14,546 bases of DNA from Acidobacteriota bacterium (GTDB lineage: Bacteria > Acidobacteriota > UBA6911). The stretch lies in contig JAIRVC010000149.1 of NCBI GenBank assembly GCA_031254095.1, forward strand, positions 1 to 14,546, read 5' to 3'. The notes under the pieces were generated by a model. That model made no database searches and had not been told where the DNA came from. It saw only the letters and a program-made list of their open reading frames with translations. Positions 2,001-8,980 of this stretch are shown here, one piece after another (the first letter of the stretch is position 1; the number at the start of each line of letters is the position of its first letter). Made by a program: the position numbers and the translations under genes.

Positions 2001-2423
2001 ACGCCGCTCCCTTCATCAGCCCGGATATTGCAGTCATTTTTATGGCATGAATGTTGATACGTGGCGCGCGCCGCAAAAGTTACAGATAATAGCCGCCTCA
2101 CGGCGGCCAGTGGTCAGTGATCAGAAAAATCCGCCGTGAACCATCTTTGGAGGGTAACTTCTGAATGAAGTTATAGGCGAGTTGATATGGCGTTGCTGGC
2201 GTCCTCGCCGGCGTGTTCTACAAAATGCGTGCGAAAGCCAGTGCGCTACATTCACGCGGCAAATCCGGCACAAACGCTGCGGCCGTCCCCGCTCCTGCGG
2301 GGATTCAAATTCGGCATAAATTGCAAAGCATTCCGCCGGCGAGACGATAGCAGCACCATGTCTCAAACTTTTCCGGCACACGCCCGGTTTCATATATTCT
2401 CGGGGCGGTTCAGGAGGGACTTT
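2001..2423. other. Non-coding interval with hairpins and one repeat copy
   Basis: I find no convincing gene here. It holds the ribosome-binding site and presumed promoter of the permease (minus strand), a 10-bp palindrome GGCGCGCGCC at 2063-2072, a GC hairpin GCCGCC-TCAC-GGCGGC at 2092-2107, one copy of the dispersed repeat at 2107-2181, and a second hairpin CCCCGC-TCCT-GCGGGG at 2287-2302. Short open frames on both strands have no recognisable protein features. The 2190-2310 part has the look of degenerate intergenic repeat DNA. Confidence 0.6.
2107..2181 (+). repeat. Dispersed repeat R1, copy 1
   Basis: About 75 bp reading CCAGTGGTCAGTGATCAG, then AAAAATCCGCCGTGAACC, ATCTTTGG, GGTAACTTCTG and GGCGAG. 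The same sequence recurs inverted at 3714-3797 with a few substitutions and small indels (for example AG inserted after ATCTTTGG, and AATGAAG against GAATAAAG). It lies ~110 bp upstream of the permease start. No coding capacity is apparent, and the function is unknown. Confidence 0.8.
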
Positions 2424-3688: not shown

Positions 3689-3697
3689 ATCACCTCC
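3689..3697 (-). promoter_or_regulatory. Strong ribosome-binding site deciding the lpxD start
   Basis: GGAGGTGAT lies directly before the ATG at 3688 and is complementary over nine bases to the usual 16S rRNA 3' end (ATCACCTCC). The core GGAGG is 4 nt from the ATG, slightly close. It is the best ribosome-binding site in the window and rules out the longer start at 3757. Confidence 0.75.
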
Positions 3698-3713
3698 ATC
3701 CCTCCATGAAACG

Positions 3714-3797
3714 CTCGCCCATAGCTTTATTCCAGAAGTTACCCAAAGATGGTTCACGGCGGATTTTTTCTAACCACTGGTCACTGATCACTGGTCA
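3714..3797 (-). repeat. Dispersed repeat R1, copy 2 (inverted)
   Basis: Read on the minus strand it starts at the dedA stop with AGTGACCAGTGATCAGTGAC and CAGTGGTTAG, then AAAAAATCCGCCGTGAACC, ATCTTTGGGTAACTTCTGG, AATAAAGCTATGGGCGAG. It matches 2107-2181 in opposite orientation. The leading part is a short tandem array of CAGTGAtc/CAGTGAcc units containing the palindrome CACTGATCAGTG. The copy fills most of the gap between dedA and lpxD, so lpxD is either read through it or transcribed from within it. Confidence 0.85.
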
Positions 3798-4439
3798 CTT
3801 TTTTCGCGTATTTCGCCAGACTTCAATCACGGCCGGCAGTATGGAAACAAATATGATGACAAGAATCAGAACGGTCAGATTCTTTTTTACAAATTCCAGT
3901 TCGCCGAAGAAGTATCCCGCATATGTGAAACCCGCCACCCATACGCCGCCGCCGACAATATTATAAGCGAGAAAACGGACGTATTTCATTTTTCCCATTC
4001 CCGCCACGAAAGGAGCAAACGTGCGGACAATGGGAACGAAACGCGCGATGATGATGGTTTTACCGCCGTGTTTCTTATAAAAATCCTGTGTTTTTTTAAG
4101 ATAACTCTGCTTGAATATCTTTGAATCGGGGTTTCGGAAAAGTTTCTCGCCGAAAAGTTTGCCGATGAAGTAATTGCAGGCGTCGCCCAGCACGGCGGCG
4201 GCAAACAGCAGCGCCACAATCAAATGAACATTTATATGATTGCTTCCGACCGACGCAATCGCGCCGGCGACGAACAACAGGGAGTCTCCCGGCAGAAACG
4301 GCGTGATCACGAGGCCTGTTTCGCAAAAGATAATGAGAAAGAGTATGCCGTAAATCCAGGATCCGTAGTTTCTTGTCAGTTCCGCTAAATGTACGTCCAG
4401 ATGAAGAAAAAAGCTTATCAAAGATTGTATGTGTTCCAT
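3795..4439 (-). CDS. DedA/SNARE-associated family inner-membrane protein
   Basis: 214-residue polytopic membrane protein of the DedA superfamily, whose members support envelope integrity and proton-motive-force-dependent functions. Some are implicated in undecaprenyl-phosphate or phospholipid flipping. Hydrophobic segments lie at ~29-62, ~70-95, ~150-178 and ~187-206. The diagnostic pieces are [19 protein letters not shown] (Glu40, Asp52; the acidic pair of E. coli YqjA-type proteins) and [20 protein letters not shown] (Arg133, Arg139; the F/YxRFxPxxR motif). Length is typical. The start codon has only a weak upstream GCGGT. It lies between the acyl-CoA ligase, separated by MITE-like copy A, and lpxD, separated by repeat R1. 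An envelope-lipid role suits the neighbours, but the transported lipid cannot be read from sequence. Confidence 0.92.
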
Positions 4440-4466: not shown

Positions 4467-4626
4467 GAGGAAACACTGATTAATTGCCTGCGCGGGCGAA
4501 TTGCCAAATTGTTTACGGCGGCGCGGCGCCCGTAACCTGAACATATTAGCATATATGCCTCGGTTCCTTGGCTCCGTGCGCCCGCTGGCGCAATATCCCG
4601 CACAGACAATTAATCAGCGTTTCCTC
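4467..4626. repeat. MITE-like palindromic element, copy A (160 bp)
   Basis: The terminal inverted repeats are 30 bp (4467-4496 and 4597-4626) and match at 27 of 30 positions. Both arms carry GAGGAAAC.CTGATTAATTG and end in GCGGG. The centre holds ACATATTAGCATATATG followed by CCTCGGTTCC and CTCCGTGCGCC, sequence shared with copy C. A small hairpin TGCGCC-CGCT-GGCGCA precedes the right arm. There is no open frame. It begins 11 bp after the acyl-CoA ligase stop codon and ends 27 bp before the dedA start. I could not identify a convincing target-site duplication by eye. Confidence 0.88.
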
Positions 4627-4637
4627 AGAGGTTCCCT

Positions 4638-6275
4638 TTACTTATTTGTTTGCGAGGCGACGACATTATCCGCGCCGTAGATATGGCGCAGTTTGGGCTT
4701 TTCTATTTTGCCCGTCGCGTTGCGCGGCACGGAAGCGAATATGATTTTTCGCGGACGCTTATACCGCGGCAGCCCCAGGCAGAATTCGTTAATTTCATCC
4801 TCCGTAATGGAGGCGTCCGGCTTCGCCTCAATGACCGCGCACGCAATTTCGCCGAGCCTTCCGTCCTCCAGGCCGATAACCGCGACATCCCTGATCTTTG
4901 GATGCGCCGCAAGGAAATTCTCTATCTGCACCGGGTAGATGTTCTCGCCTCCCGTGATGATCACATCTTTTTTCCTGTCTACAAGGAATATGAAGCCGTC
5001 TTCGTCCAGTTGCGCCATGTCGCCGGTGTGCAGCCATCCATTTTTAAGCGTTTCGTCCGTCGCTTTGCGGTCGTTGTAATAACACAGCATAACGCCGGGA
5101 CCTTTCACGCACAGCTCGCCGACATCGCCGTCCTTGACGGGCGCGCCGTTTTCATCGACGATCTTGCATTCCCATCCGTAGCCCGGCACGCCTATCGCGC
5201 CGACCTTATGCGTATTTTCGACGCCAAGATGCACGCATCCGGGGCCGATGGATTCCGACAGCCCGTAGTTCGTATCGTACCGGTGATGCGGAAACAGTTC
5301 CAGCCACCTGCGGACAAGACTCTGCGGCACGGGCTGCGCGCCTATGTGCATGAGCCGCCATTGACCAAGCTCGTAATCGGACAGCCGGACATCGCCGCGT
5401 TCTATGGCGACCAGAATATCCTGCGCCCACGGCACCAGCAACCACACTATCGTGCATTTTTCGCGCGCCGCCGTTTCAAGTATGTAGCGCGGTTCTGTTC
5501 CTTTCAGCAAAACAGCGCGCCCGCCGACGATAAAACTGCCAAACCAGTGCATTTTCGCGCCCGTATGGTACAGCGGCGGTATGCACAAAAATACATCTTC
5601 TTTCGTCTGCCCGTGATGCGCCTGTTCCACGCGGCAGGCGTGCATCAGGCTTTTGTGATCGTGCAGTATCGCTTTTGGGAAGCCCGTTGTTCCCGACGAA
5701 AAATATATCGCTGCAATGTCGCTGTCCGAGAGCTTTACGTCCGGCGGCGCGGACGAACAGTCCGAGGTCAGTTCCGTGTAGCTTTCCGCGAAGGTCGGGC
5801 ATGTCTCGGAACCGCAGAAGATGAGGGCAAGGCGGGGCGGCAGATGGTCGGCAATTTCCTCGATGCGCCCTATAAACTCCGGCCCGAAAATTAAAACGTC
5901 AACCTCCGCGAGTGTAAGGCAGTACTTTATCTCATCTGCGGAATACCGGAAATTCAACGGCACGGCGACCGTTCCGGCCTTTAGCGCTCCAAAATACACC
6001 GGCAGCCATTCGAGGCAGTTCATCAATAATACGGCGACTTTGTCCTCCCGGCGTATGCCGCGCGAAATAAGCAGATTCGCGAACCGGTTTGCCTTTTCGT
6101 CAAAAACGCTCCATGTGATTTCGCGCCTGTATGACCGGGCGTGTTCCGGCTCGATAAGTTCATATTCACGCCAGGTGACGCGCCGCGTCTCGCGCCGGTC
6201 AGGATTGACTTCGACAAGCGCGACATCGGAGCCGAATTTTTCCGCGTTTCGCGAAAGGATTTCTGTAATGGGCAT
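4638..6275 (-). CDS. Class I adenylate-forming acyl-CoA ligase (FadD-like)
   Basis: 545-residue AMP-binding enzyme that activates a carboxylic acid, probably a fatty acid, to acyl-AMP and then acyl-CoA. Core motifs are intact: P-loop YFSSGTTGFPKA (~191-202), YGLSE (~337-341), the TGD and hinge region GWLHTGDMAQLDEDGF (~413-428) with DRKKDVIITGGENIYP, and PRNATGKIEKPKL with the catalytic lysine near 523. The N-terminus has ~25 extra residues between two similar 'TW' segments (RRVTWREYEL and REITWSVFDE), a feature I associate with ligases of Desulfobacterota and relatives. Chain-length preference cannot be read. The start at 6275 has a modest AGAG about 7 nt upstream. It is flanked by gene remnants upstream and copy A downstream, and is probably transcribed alone. 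Confidence 0.92.
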   Translation of the reverse strand: MPITEILSRNAEKFGSDVALVEVNPDRRETRRVTWREYELIEPEHARSYRREITWSVFDEKANRFANLLISRGIRREDKVAVLLMNCLEWLPVYFGALKAGTVAVPLNFRYSADEIKYCLTLAEVDVLIFGPEFIGRIEEIADHLPPRLALIFCGSETCPTFAESYTELTSDCSSAPPDVKLSDSDIAAIYFSSGTTGFPKAILHDHKSLMHACRVEQAHHGQTKEDVFLCIPPLYHTGAKMHWFGSFIVGGRAVLLKGTEPRYILETAAREKCTIVWLLVPWAQDILVAIERGDVRLSDYELGQWRLMHIGAQPVPQSLVRRWLELFPHHRYDTNYGLSESIGPGCVHLGVENTHKVGAIGVPGYGWECKIVDENGAPVKDGDVGELCVKGPGVMLCYYNDRKATDETLKNGWLHTGDMAQLDEDGFIFLVDRKKDVIITGGENIYPVQIENFLAAHPKIRDVAVIGLEDGRLGEIACAVIEAKPDASITEDEINEFCLGLPRYKRPRKIIFASVPRNATGKIEKPKLRHIYGADNVVASQTNK

Positions 6276-6327
6276 ATCGTTCTCTTTCCGTAAAAATCGT
6301 AAATGTCACGAGGCAAAACCAAAAAAT

Positions 6328-6590
6328 TTACCAATATTTCCTTATGCGTTCCACTTTATAAGCAAGCCCTGCGTTGATAAGCCATATCGGCGCATCCTCT
6401 AAATCCTTTGCGCGCCAGCCTTTTTTTTACCTGACTTAAAATGAATTTACGGTTTTCCTGCAGAACTAACTCGGAATAGACTGCCAGACGGCTGAAATTT
6501 TAGGATAATCTTTTGTGTCCGCGTATTTTACAAAGTTTTTTTGACAGCCGATTAATATTTCATCCTGCTTTTTTCAACATCTTCAAGCAT
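6328..6590 (-). pseudogene. Frameshifted remnant of an AAA-ATPase with DUF4143 domain
   Basis: No single frame is long, but adjacent frames on the minus strand spell out the C-terminal domain of the AAA_14/DUF4143 ATPases in order. MLEDVEK (from 6590) shifts to KQDEILIGCQKNFVKY and ISAVWQSIPS (to 6469). After a frame shift at a TAG comes LVLQENRKFILSQVKK (from 6469). After an A8 run (6421-6428) comes GWRAKDLEDAPIWLINAGLA with YKVERIRKYW and the stop at 6328. In the family the corresponding stretch reads like VWxSIPSQLxxENKKF ... GARAKDxExAxxWLxDAGLVYKV, so the order and spacing fit. There are two or three frame breaks, two of them at A-runs, and everything upstream (the ATPase domain) and downstream is missing. 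It is a decayed fragment, not an expressed gene. Confidence 0.7.
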
Positions 6591-6611
6591 TACGGGGTTG
6601 ATCGGATTCGC

Positions 6612-6746
6612 TCAACTGTAACGTTCTTTTCCGGCGGCCTTTTGAGCCTTTTTGAACGCCGCAGGATTTATGCCTCCGGCCAGTTGATTCCGTGTTTCGC
6701 CATGCTCTGTATGCGCCTCTTGCAGGGAAATATCAGGGTATCTTCC
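6612..6746 (-). pseudogene. P4-type tyrosine integrase N-terminal-domain remnant (DUF4102-like)
   Basis: A 44-codon open frame with no start codon, ending in TGA at 6612. It reads GRYPDISLQEAHTEHGETRN, then QLAGGINPAAFKKAQKAAGK and ERYS. This closely follows the signature of the N-terminal arm-binding domain of P4-like phage/island integrases (GxYPxxSLxEARxxxxEARxLLAxGIDPxxxKKAxK). The catalytic domain and the first ~50 residues are absent. The match begins exactly at the outer boundary of MITE-like copy B (6747), so the element or a deletion ending at it cut the gene. Family assignment is from the motif alone, but the run of agreement is long. Confidence 0.65.
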
Positions 6747-6905
6747 ATGAAAACGCTGATCAATTGTCTTTGCGGGCGAATTGCCAAATTCTCTGCGGCT
6801 GCGCGGCGCTCATATTTCCATATATGCATCGGCTTTGTGCGCCTGCCTGTCTCGGCAGACTGGCAGGCGCAATATCCCGCACAGACGATTAATCAGCATT
6901 TTCCA
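6747..6905. repeat. MITE-like palindromic element, copy B (159 bp)
   Basis: Same family and orientation as copy A: terminal arms at 6747-6776 and 6876-6905 (GCTGATCAATTGTCT and GCTGATTAATCGTCTG, both ending GCGGG), and shared interior GCGGGCGAATTGCCAAATT and CATATATGC. It differs by a large internal hairpin at 6838-6871: TGCGCCTGCC pairs with GGCAGGCGCA, and GTCT with AGAC, around CGGC. That is 14 bp with one T-T mismatch. The element starts 40 bp after the rubrerythrin stop codon and abuts the integrase remnant. Open frames across it are chance. Confidence 0.88.
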
Positions 6906-6945
6906 TCCAAAAACCGCCGGTTTTGTGGATAAAAGACGGATGTTG

Positions 6946-7488
6946 TTATTTGAAATACCGCGCTAAAAGCCCCTTGAAGCTCGCGCAGTGACGGGCTTCG
7001 TCCCTTGCCATTTCGTGGACAGTATCGTGAATGGCGTCAAGTCCCTTTTCCTTGGCGCGCTTTGCGATGTCGGTTTTGCCGGCACAGGCGCCGAATTCCG
7101 CTTCGATCCGCATTTCGAGGTTTTTCTTCGTGCTGTCGGTAATTACTTCACCCAGCAGCTCGGCGAATTTGGCGGCATGTTCCGCTTCTTCATAAGCGGC
7201 TTTTTCCCAGTATTGGCCAATTTCGGGATAACCCTCCCGGAAAGCGACCCGCGCCATGGCCAGGTACATGCCCACTTCACAGCATTCGCCGTTAAAGTGA
7301 GCCTGCAGGTCTTTAACGATATCCGCGTCCACTCCCTTTGCGACTCCTGCCGCGTGTTCGGCCGCAAACGCGCCGCCGGCTTTCTGCTCGTTAAATTTGG
7401 AGGCTGGAGCCTTGCACTGGGGGCAGGCGGTTGGGGGCTCATCACCCGTGTGAACATAACCGCAGACTGAACAAACCCATTTTTTCAT
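6946..7488 (-). CDS. Reverse-type rubrerythrin (rubredoxin domain N-terminal)
   Basis: 180-residue non-haem iron protein of the rubrerythrin family, cytoplasmic. These act as NAD(P)H-linked peroxidases that detoxify hydrogen peroxide in anaerobes. Residues 1-32 are a rubredoxin-like FeCys4 site (Cys6, Cys9, Cys22, Cys25 in WVCSVCGYV and ACPQCKAP). Residues ~55-180 are a ferritin-like four-helix di-iron domain (NGECCEVGMYLAMA, YEEAEHAAKF with Glu101 and His104, EARHCASF with Glu164 and His167). This order is reversed relative to classical rubrerythrin and matches 'reverse rubrerythrin'. The start has an excellent TAGGAGAG upstream. Copy C ends only 37 bp upstream, leaving little space for a separate promoter. 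Copy B follows 40 bp downstream. Confidence 0.94.
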   Translation of the reverse strand: MKKWVCSVCGYVHTGDEPPTACPQCKAPASKFNEQKAGGAFAAEHAAGVAKGVDADIVKDLQAHFNGECCEVGMYLAMARVAFREGYPEIGQYWEKAAYEEAEHAAKFAELLGEVITDSTKKNLEMRIEAEFGACAGKTDIAKRAKEKGLDAIHDTVHEMARDEARHCASFKGLLARYFK

Positions 7489-7525
7489 GTTTCTCTCCTA
7501 AAGATTAAATACGCATCACCATTAA

Positions 7526-7673
7526 AAGGAAGTGTTGAATAAATGGTTGTGCGGGATGAAGCGCGAGGCGCACGGAGCGCAGGAACCGAGGCATATATCA
7601 ATGATATGTCGAGGTTACGAACACCGCGCAACGAAGTGATTCGCCCGCACAGCCATTTAGTCAGCACTTCCTT
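7526..7673. repeat. MITE-like palindromic element, copy C (148 bp, inverted relative to A and B)
   Basis: Arms at 7526-7555 (AAGGAAGTGTTGAATAAATG then GTTGTGCGGG) and 7644-7673 pair at nearly every position. Read in reverse it shares with copy A the blocks GTGCGGGCGAAT, CGTAACCT, ATATATGCCTCGGTTCCT and CTCCGTGCGCC. Its centre is itself palindromic (ATATCATTGATAT). The outer end of one arm touches the TAA stop codon of the metalloprotease gene (7673-7675). The arms have the same length but diverged sequence from A and B (GGAAGTGCTGA against GGAAACGCTGA), so this is an older or separate subfamily. Confidence 0.87.
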
Positions 7674-8980
7674 TACTCATACAGCTTTTTACCGTCAGCC
7701 TCAGGGAGCCCCAAAATAATACGGACAGAAGCGCCTTCTCTGAAAAGGGCGCTGAATTCCCCGTTCTGAATCAGTAAAAATCCTTCCGGAGTTACACGCC
7801 TTGAGACTTTAGAATAGCGAAGCCGGAACCAGTCGTCCATGGCGGCAAAGAATTTTTCCGCGTCATCGCCGGTGTCCCACTCCGTTTCAATCCAGACGGC
7901 ATTCCGTCCCGTGCCGTTTTCCAGAAGCAGAACCTCGTCTCCTCCCCATCCCGCCGCCGCGCGCCTGGCGCGGTCCTTGCTCATGTGAAGTTCCAACATC
8001 TGCCCCAGCATAAATTCTCCGAATACGCTTTTGTAGGGGATTTTCCATTCAGCGCCGAGTTTCGCCGCTTTTTCCGCGGCGTTTACCGGCTTCGGATTGT
8101 CCCGCGTTCCATAATATTTTTCCGGGTGCATGATCTGCTCGGATGACACCGGCGGATCCGAGTAAATTTTATTTACGGCTTCCCATGACGGATTCCGTTT
8201 CCATGCTTCCTGCAGAAACGCGGCGCCATACCCGTAAGGGAAAATCAGGGTCTCCCTGAGAAACCGCGGCGTGGTTGAAAGAGCTGGAGATTTCGACATC
8301 TCGGCATCCATCTGCGTTTCCATAATGAAAGCAAGGTTGGGCAGGTCGGAAAAATGCCGATTGAGCGGCTCGACGGTAAATTGCAGCGCCGTTACCGTGG
8401 CGTCGCCCTCAAACAGCGCCTGCTGCGCCAGCAAATAATCGTCGTTATCAGAGTTCCGGTTGGCGCGAAATCTCGCCTGTAAATCAAAATGCTGGTCTTG
8501 CAGCGCATGTGCGATTTCATGCGTCATGACCGATTCCTGGTCGGACATGGGAAGCCAGGAGGCGATAAACAGCATCCTTTCCTCCGGATCGTAAAACCCC
8601 TGCACCTGTTCGGTCAGAAGATCAATCACCGTTTGCTGGTAGTCGATTTTTTCCGGCAGCAGCCCCGTTTTTTTCAGCATCTTCTCTTCCAGTAAAATCC
8701 GATCCATCTGGTAATCTTCGTTGATTTTCCGGGCCATATAACCGGTAATTTCTTCGCGGCTTTTGATTCCTTTCTGAATGGGGCCTTTGAGTTCAAGCCC
8801 GCGCACACGCGCCGCAACGCCCGTCAGTTCGTCCAGGGCTCTCAGGATCTGGCTTTCGTCAATCTGCTCTGCGGCCGCGGGAACGCCTGCAATCAGGCAT
8901 AAAACTAACAATAATTTCCAAAGCGAACTGCAAAACTTTCCGGCTTTGCGAGCGTCTTTCCGTAACGATCGAATCAGCAT
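7673..8980 (-). CDS. Secreted or membrane-anchored HExxH zinc metalloprotease-like protein
   Basis: 435 residues with a basic N-terminus and one hydrophobic segment (SLWKLLLVLCLIAGVPAAA, ~19-37), consistent with a signal peptide or anchor. The catalytic motif is HEIAHALQDQHFDL (His154, Glu155, His158), followed ~33 residues later by EGDAT, whose Glu191 is a plausible third zinc ligand (gluzincin pattern). The rest is soluble. I know this combination from uncharacterised proteins of Acidobacteria and related phyla; the substrate is unknown. I prefer ATG at 8980 because GAGGA sits 8 nt upstream. An in-frame ATG at 8995, 4 bp after the fusion gene's stop, would add five residues but lacks a good ribosome-binding site. 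Tight spacing implies the same operon as the upstream fusion gene and ccmH. Confidence 0.8.
   Translation of the reverse strand: MLIRSLRKDARKAGKFCSSLWKLLLVLCLIAGVPAAAEQIDESQILRALDELTGVAARVRGLELKGPIQKGIKSREEITGYMARKINEDYQMDRILLEEKMLKKTGLLPEKIDYQQTVIDLLTEQVQGFYDPEERMLFIASWLPMSDQESVMTHEIAHALQDQHFDLQARFRANRNSDNDDYLLAQQALFEGDATVTALQFTVEPLNRHFSDLPNLAFIMETQMDAEMSKSPALSTTPRFLRETLIFPYGYGAAFLQEAWKRNPSWEAVNKIYSDPPVSSEQIMHPEKYYGTRDNPKPVNAAEKAAKLGAEWKIPYKSVFGEFMLGQMLELHMSKDRARRAAAGWGGDEVLLLENGTGRNAVWIETEWDTGDDAEKFFAAMDDWFRLRYSKVSRRVTPEGFLLIQNGEFSALFREGASVRIILGLPEADGKKLYE

Follow-up and report, generated by a model that had tools for sequence, protein, structure and literature searches.

A miniature inverted-repeat family of an Acidobacteriota genome, probably inserted at YTAR targets and frequently placed at stop codons

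Introduction

A range of short intergenic palindromes has been described from Bacteria, and these provide the framework for the element that we report here, an imperfect palindrome of ~150 bp present in three copies (A, B, and C) on a 14,546-bp contig of an Acidobacteriota bacterium of the UBA6911 lineage (GenBank JAIRVC010000149.1, assembly GCA_031254095.1; this whole stretch is hereafter the window). The ERIC (or IRU) sequences of enterobacteria are reported, in excerpts of PMC2229807, to be intergenic, co-transcribed imperfect palindromes of ~127 bp with an orientation-dependent effect on mRNA, and our family shares with them the imperfect palindrome as well as the habits of orientation and of lying at gene 3' ends. 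The same excerpts (Table 1 for ERIC) give 5'-TA as the terminus of both ERIC and Correia elements; in contrast, our family lacks TA termini and a TA duplication, and its GG...CC ends stand within 4-bp YTAR flanks. The Correia (NEMIS) elements of Neisseria are reported to fall into size classes of ~107 and 155 bp and to form a long stem that is cleaved by RNase III (excerpts of PMC2229807 and PMC10969869); two size classes and a long stem recur in our family, but the sequence differs. BOX, RUP, and SPRITE of Streptococcus pneumoniae are, like the family here, mobile intergenic repeats near gene ends, and 36 annotated genes reportedly owe their stop codon to BOX (excerpt of PMC3049150). REP and BIME sequences are likewise intergenic palindromes, but REPs are given as 20 to 40 bp long with a conserved end tetranucleotide (excerpt of PMC3733652), whereas our element is ~150 bp long and has target duplications.

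A further point of comparison is the insertion sequence IS5, whose target duplication is reported as YTAR (excerpt of PMC10359306), together with the miniature inverted-repeat transposable elements (MITEs) derived from it. The same 4-bp YTAR duplication occurs at our copies; the element here, however, is without a transposase gene, and the likeness is one of target. The original prediction, drawn from the letters of the window, held that the three copies belong to an abundant MITE-like family placed at gene 3' ends, where it either targets transcript ends or is kept as a terminator or an mRNA-stabilizing structure. We consider it probable that the family is a MITE that inserts at YTAR and that owes its stop-codon-rich placement to this target word. 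We regard the family as new: no report of it turned up in the open-access literature searched, of which ten papers containing an 11-letter arm word were not examined.

Results and Discussion

An abundant and asymmetric element

The assembly comprises 2,087,832 bases in 399 contigs and is 76% complete with 2.7% contamination. We read 140 of these contigs (799,153 bases), of which 86 were mostly chosen for matches or transposase hits and 54 were chosen regardless of matches. Over the 140 contigs, a profile made from the genome's own copies recovered at least 96 pieces; of these, 75 reach 95 bp or more and 65 are full-length. The 54 unselected contigs (274,761 bases) held only 3 pieces, none full-length by the profile measure, so most full copies are probably already in hand. 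Across the assembly, a 20-nucleotide arm with up to three mismatches gave 190 matches against 0 for the reversed control, and patterns for the left and right halves of the long type gave 52 and 56 matches. A DNA search with copy A returned 172 candidates; each of the 40 that were scored, a set without copies B and C, matched across the greater part of the element with a score of at least 133 bits. The abundance claimed by the original prediction is thus borne out by the arm matches and the profile pieces, and the outcome in which the genome held only the three window copies did not occur.

Full-length copies mostly measure 143 to 156 bp (n = 65) and contain no transposase gene, and 58 aligned copies are on average 87% identical to one another. 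The element ends are GGAAAC[A/G]CTGATTAATTG, belonging to an outer imperfect repeat of 28 to 30 bp. The two halves differ (GCGGGCGAATTG... versus GCGGGATGAAG...), with a core asymmetry common to both size classes, and the element therefore has an orientation. Copies of the long class (~153 bp) carry CCAAATTGTTTACGGCG in the inner left half, where those of the short class (~143 bp) have CTTCGTT instead. Arm pairs were also seen at spacings of 78 to 99 bp, 122 to 129 bp, 186 bp, and 280 bp. Two longer variants (L082:3983-4262 and L115:579-764) hold ~30 to 125 bp of other sequence inside the element. Arms without the element interior occur at L043:7442, L057:1499, L056:547, and other places, some of them directly following YTAR; these may be deletion remnants or something else.

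The target site

The flanks of 53 copies with both arms recognized and a length of 120 to 160 bp carry a clear target signal. YTAR stands on the left of 25 copies, on the right of 27, and on both sides of 15, against a background of 0.005. An exact 4-bp duplication is present in 15 of the 53, compared with a mean of 4.1 in shuffled flanks, and none of 10,000 shuffles reached 15. Control flanks taken 4 to 30 bp farther out showed neither a YTAR excess nor a duplication excess. The target-site duplications that the original prediction proposed to look for are therefore present. The family is short and without a transposase gene, has terminal inverted repeats and a target duplication, and is dispersed in many copies, as is a MITE; because of the YTAR flanks and the 4-bp duplications, we think it likely that it is a MITE with IS5-type target behavior.

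Placement at gene ends and stop codons

Gene positions were taken from a simple in-house script, which called 447 genes on 80 contigs (85.5% coding) and whose calls in the window agree with the open reading frame (ORF) list and Pfam. From 86 hits we classified the 68 of at least 95 bp and dropped the 18 shorter pieces. These 68 copies lie in co-directional gaps (35), divergent gaps (10), convergent gaps (8), and contig ends with a single neighbor (14); only one overlaps a gene call, although 85.5% of bases are coding. Among the 53 copies with two neighbors, 29 are within 20 bp of a stop codon. The expectation is 6.8 if all intergenic bases are equal and 21.9 if each copy stays in its gap and is placed anew within it (P = 0.006, an approximate null in which 62 gaps stand for 53 copies). 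As a null for the target itself, we used the 464 YTAR sites in element-free gaps at which an insertion would leave genes intact. Only 25.4% of these sites fall within 20 bp of a stop (13.5 expected, against the observed 29, or 55%; P = 9e-6), and 13.6% fall within 1 bp of or over a stop, compared with 34% of copies (18/53; P = 1e-4). The gap classes fit the YTAR expectation (tandem, 35 versus 34.5; divergent, 10 versus 11.9; convergent, 8 versus 6.6).

Placement at gene 3' ends, as originally proposed, is thus upheld by the distances to stop codons, and placement at random relative to gene ends did not occur. The further proposal that the family targets transcript ends is better read as targeting of the YTAR word. 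Part of the bias arises because YTAR contains TAA or TAG, which offers a simple reason for a transposon to seem targeted to gene ends; the remaining, approximately twofold excess at stops needs selection or another cause.

The junctions themselves are in keeping with this target. Among the 68 copies are 24 junctions at or over the upstream stop, their edges being known to within a base or two. Fourteen of them have the stop in the flank, at most 1 base from the element (TAA or TAG, once TGA); in 2 a TAG is made of the target TA and the element's first G; and in 8 the frame closes at a TGA or TAA inside the arm. Within 30 nucleotides of the end, two frames are closed and the third stays open at 97 of 116 ends. 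The family resembles BOX in providing stop codons, but most of the stop junctions here have the stop in the flank, and convergent gaps, with 8 of the 53 copies, are not enriched.

Orientation, RNA structure, and competing explanations

We define the sense strand of the element as the strand opposite to the profile plus strand. Where direction is set by both neighbors or by the sole neighbor, 37 of 49 copies are gene-sense (P = 0.0005). Copies in divergent gaps are sense to the nearer gene in 9 of 10 cases, and those in convergent gaps in 3 of 6, with two equidistant copies left out. A later check set gave 4 of 7, which by itself does not confirm the bias; pooled and with convergent gaps omitted, the count is 50 of 66 (P = 3e-5). 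The bias is alike at all distances from the stop (10:4, 15:4, and 8:2) and in both size classes (long, 30/37; short, 12/16, with P = 0.08 for the short class). Replication direction was rejected as its cause, residual GC skew being unassociated with it in what is, on short contigs, a weak test. Target asymmetry may be a cause: on the sense strand, exact duplications read CTAA five times and TTAG never, but single flanks divide 7 to 5 and 9 to 3.

The more stable RNA strand is the sense strand in 53 of 58 copies, a count that, given the shared ancestry of the copies, is a single family trait rather than 53 tests. RNAalifold finds structure on both strands of the 58 aligned copies (-34.9 sense, -18.0 antisense), which can be explained by shared ancestry alone. 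Covariation at the RNA level was considered and set aside: in the arms, G-U exceeds A-C by 35 to 11 cells but by only 12 to 9 distinct variants. The two arms of a copy match each other above shuffled arms (1117 versus 1081.5 paired cells, standard deviation 3.7, reached in 0 of 2,000 shuffles), and double changes across the arms occur, for example in copy C; such matching could stem from common descent, from copying of one arm onto the other, or from selection.

The alternative that best survives these data holds that the copies arrived by transposition and are now kept as RNA hairpins that, transcribed with the neighboring genes, serve as a 3' barrier, an RNase site, or an operon damper, with an orientation dependence such as that reported for ERIC. 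The pooled gene-sense count, the greater stability of the sense RNA, the twofold stop excess beyond the target expectation, and the matching of arms within copies all speak for it. The check set, however, was gene-sense in only 4 of 7 copies, the G-U surplus shrinks among distinct variants to a level that gives no clear sign of RNA-level selection, strand stability is a single family property of common ancestry, and arm matching is open to explanation by descent or between-arm copying. We therefore judge this alternative rather unlikely. The mRNA-stabilizing role named in the original prediction has the same standing with respect to orientation, in that the bias is compatible with an RNA effect but is no demonstration of one; it does render the role of a transcribed hairpin testable.

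It is very unlikely that the element acts as a mobile promoter or 5' leader, driving or tuning the downstream gene and for this reason reading with it. Nine of the 10 divergent-gap copies do read towards the nearer gene, and 12 of the 53 copies lie within 20 bp of a start codon (10.6% expected; P = 0.011). Against this, the three window copies contain no promoter-like site, 28 of the 35 copies in co-directional gaps are nearer the 3' end (62% expected), and the short type shares the orientation bias. Least probable of all, despite strong hairpins close to 3' ends, is the originally suggested role as an intrinsic transcription terminator kept at gene ends, since the gap classes, convergent gaps included, follow the YTAR expectation, copies A, B, and C contain no terminator-like site, and the outer flanks of the family are YTAR and then A/G-rich, not a T-run.

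An account based on the target word

The account that we favor, of a MITE inserting at YTAR, would run as follows. A transposase acting from elsewhere would recognize the imperfect terminal repeats and insert the element at the 4-base YTAR, duplicating it. Since YTAR holds TAA or TAG, a gene's own stop codon would often be a target, and the duplication would leave a stop codon before the element and the protein unchanged. Where a gene ended nearby and out of frame, the arms, with stops in two of three frames, would close the reading frame after a few codons. Insertions within genes would be lost by selection, and the copies that remain would lie between genes, often at stop codons. What we observed directly is the number of copies, their ends, the target word and its duplications, the position between genes, the overlap with stop codons, and the orientation bias; that a transposase of this type acts on the element, that insertions at stop codons are harmless, and that other insertions are lost is inferred.

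Several points weigh against this account. No transposase with these ends was found in the assembly, at its 76% completeness, or in 15 other genomes; the exact duplication is missing in 38 of 53 copies; the target alone leaves the excess of 29 stop-proximal copies over 13.5 expected; transposition does not explain the orientation bias; and the gene calls come from a simple script. The transposase with matching ends that the original prediction proposed to look for was thus not found. Among transposase domains, PF05598 was hit once and PF01609 four times in the assembly, and 6 of the 15 other genomes had PF05598 hits. We rejected these PF05598 and PF01609 genes as the source of the element, no arm pair surrounding any of them and only single weak matches being seen. 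Two PF05598 elements in genomes of the same genus or family (L144 and L141) have ends of their own, matched at 15 of 16 positions, with CTAG on both sides in a scan that demanded equal flanks; they are a possible hint that YTAR-type transposases occur in the lineage.

A bolder reading, which we offer tentatively and do not think likely, is that of a stop-codon-adapted transposon: with stop codons in its target word, a duplication that restores the stop, and arms that close two of three frames, its insertion at gene ends would be silent for the protein, its copies would be kept preferentially in the orientation with the stronger hairpin, and it would have been acquired across phyla, perhaps by way of a conjugative plasmid. 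If this is true, the genome would carry some hundred hairpins within operons, most of them oriented as their genes are.

Relatives outside the host

Within the phylum, the family was found in its host only. A DNA search of 60 genomes returned the host alone, and so did an arm search with up to three mismatches over 396 genomes of the phylum, the 395 others, nine of the same genus among them, having none. When the species genomes of GTDB 220 were searched with an exact arm pattern, two hits appeared, one a chance hit in Elusimicrobia L032 with one arm only and the other in the Synergistaceae metagenome-assembled genome (MAG) Lab288P3bin103. This MAG holds two copies with the same ends, at 89.6% and ~85% identity to host copies, one of them flanked by CTAT at either end; no copies were seen in 58 relatives of the MAG. 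The code Lab288 appears in a paper on 589 termite-gut MAGs (excerpt of PMC7024585). Among 72,556 plasmid records a single one, a conjugative Nitrosomonas plasmid, carries a copy, with the same ends, 79% identity to the best host copy, and TTAG in each flank to within a base. A phage search with a host copy found none, and the stricter arm pattern matched 0 viral contigs.

Other candidates were discarded: Paraburkholderia hits inside a duplicated ORF with the second arm missing, two viral contigs scoring only ~7 bits, and a Klebsiella plasmid match of only 23 bp. A 37-bp match to the Nitrosomonas copy occurs in three Enterobacter phages (E = 0.01), and further weak plasmid matches are to Rhizobium, Salipiger, and Serratia. 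That the family has relatives in Synergistaceae and Nitrosomonas, with none in nine genomes of the host's own genus, suggests that it has crossed between phyla. Bin contamination is a residual possibility, but the host copies are spread over many contigs and have ordinary genes around them.

The three window copies and their neighbors

Copy limits were set by the arm scan together with the profile. The features of the window that concern the family are as follows.

4469-4624 (156 bp), plus strand: copy A, long type, 89.5% identity to the family consensus
4469-4496, plus strand: copy A left terminal repeat, GGAAACACTGATTAATTGCCTGCGCGGG
4597-4624, minus strand: copy A right terminal repeat, GGAAACGCTGATTAATTGTCTGTGCGGG
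6749-6903 (155 bp; profile 6750-6902), plus strand: copy B, divergent long type, 82% to consensus
7528-7671 (144 bp), minus strand: copy C, short type, inverted, 81% to consensus
3795-4439, minus strand: VTT-domain gene (DedA type), start 29 bp from copy A
4638-6275, minus strand: AMP-binding gene (acyl-CoA ligase type), stop 13 bp from copy A
6946-7488, minus strand: rubrerythrin gene, stop 43 bp from copy B and start 39 bp from copy C
7673-8911, minus strand: putative metallopeptidase gene (DUF6782), stop 1 bp from copy C
7672-7675, minus strand: TAAA beside copy C, the TAA stop of the DUF6782 gene occupying the duplicated-target position

The presence and mutual relation of the three copies are confirmed as first described; their limits had been drawn 2 bp too wide at each end. 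The terminal inverted repeats hold up as well, the arms of copy A (30 nucleotides) and of copy C (31 nucleotides) each being 90% complementary, and inspection of the ORF list by eye agrees that no conserved coding frame runs over the copies. The upstream stops lie at 13, 43, and 1 bp from A, B, and C by the profile ends. The original description omitted the nearby starts of the next genes (A, 29 bp; C, 39 bp upstream), which place copies A and C in short gaps of co-directional genes. To meet three copies within 3.2 kb is unremarkable for such a family, 0.95 to 2.3 such triplets being expected by chance with 96 to 130 copies.

Copies A and B are gene-sense and copy C is not: the sense strand of A, in profile orientation plus, runs with the minus-strand genes on both sides, that of B runs in the same direction as the minus-strand genes, and that of C is opposed to its neighbors. 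The two arms of C share departures from the consensus. None of the three keeps an exact 4-bp duplication (C judged by eye). The RNA fold of copy A reaches -90 kcal/mol (z = -10.2 over 200 shuffles), and Rfam at gathering scores matched nothing anywhere in the window. Copy B has an additional inner palindrome (GCCTGCC..GGCAGGC) that is absent from the other aligned copies. The named homologues of the DUF6782 protein are labeled Acidobacteria, the best at 84%.

A second repeat in the same genome

Another abundant repeat, AAAAATCCGCCGTGAACCATCTTTGA, occurs in the window at 2125-2196 (plus strand) and 3697-3768 (minus strand) and on many host contigs. It is often followed by GGTAACTTC..GAAGTTATAGGCGAG and preceded by GCCGCCTCACGGCGG and copies of AGTGATCAGTGGTCAG. 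Window positions 2060-2260 have no Rfam match to an E value of 1, and 42 aligned copies gave no consensus fold. The assembly contains 88 matches to the repeat; 59 other genomes contain none. The 140 contigs that we read hold 38 copies, 36 of them intergenic; among the 34 intergenic copies whose downstream gene is known, 28 face a gene that runs in their own direction. The repeat may be another mobile element or else a regulatory leader.

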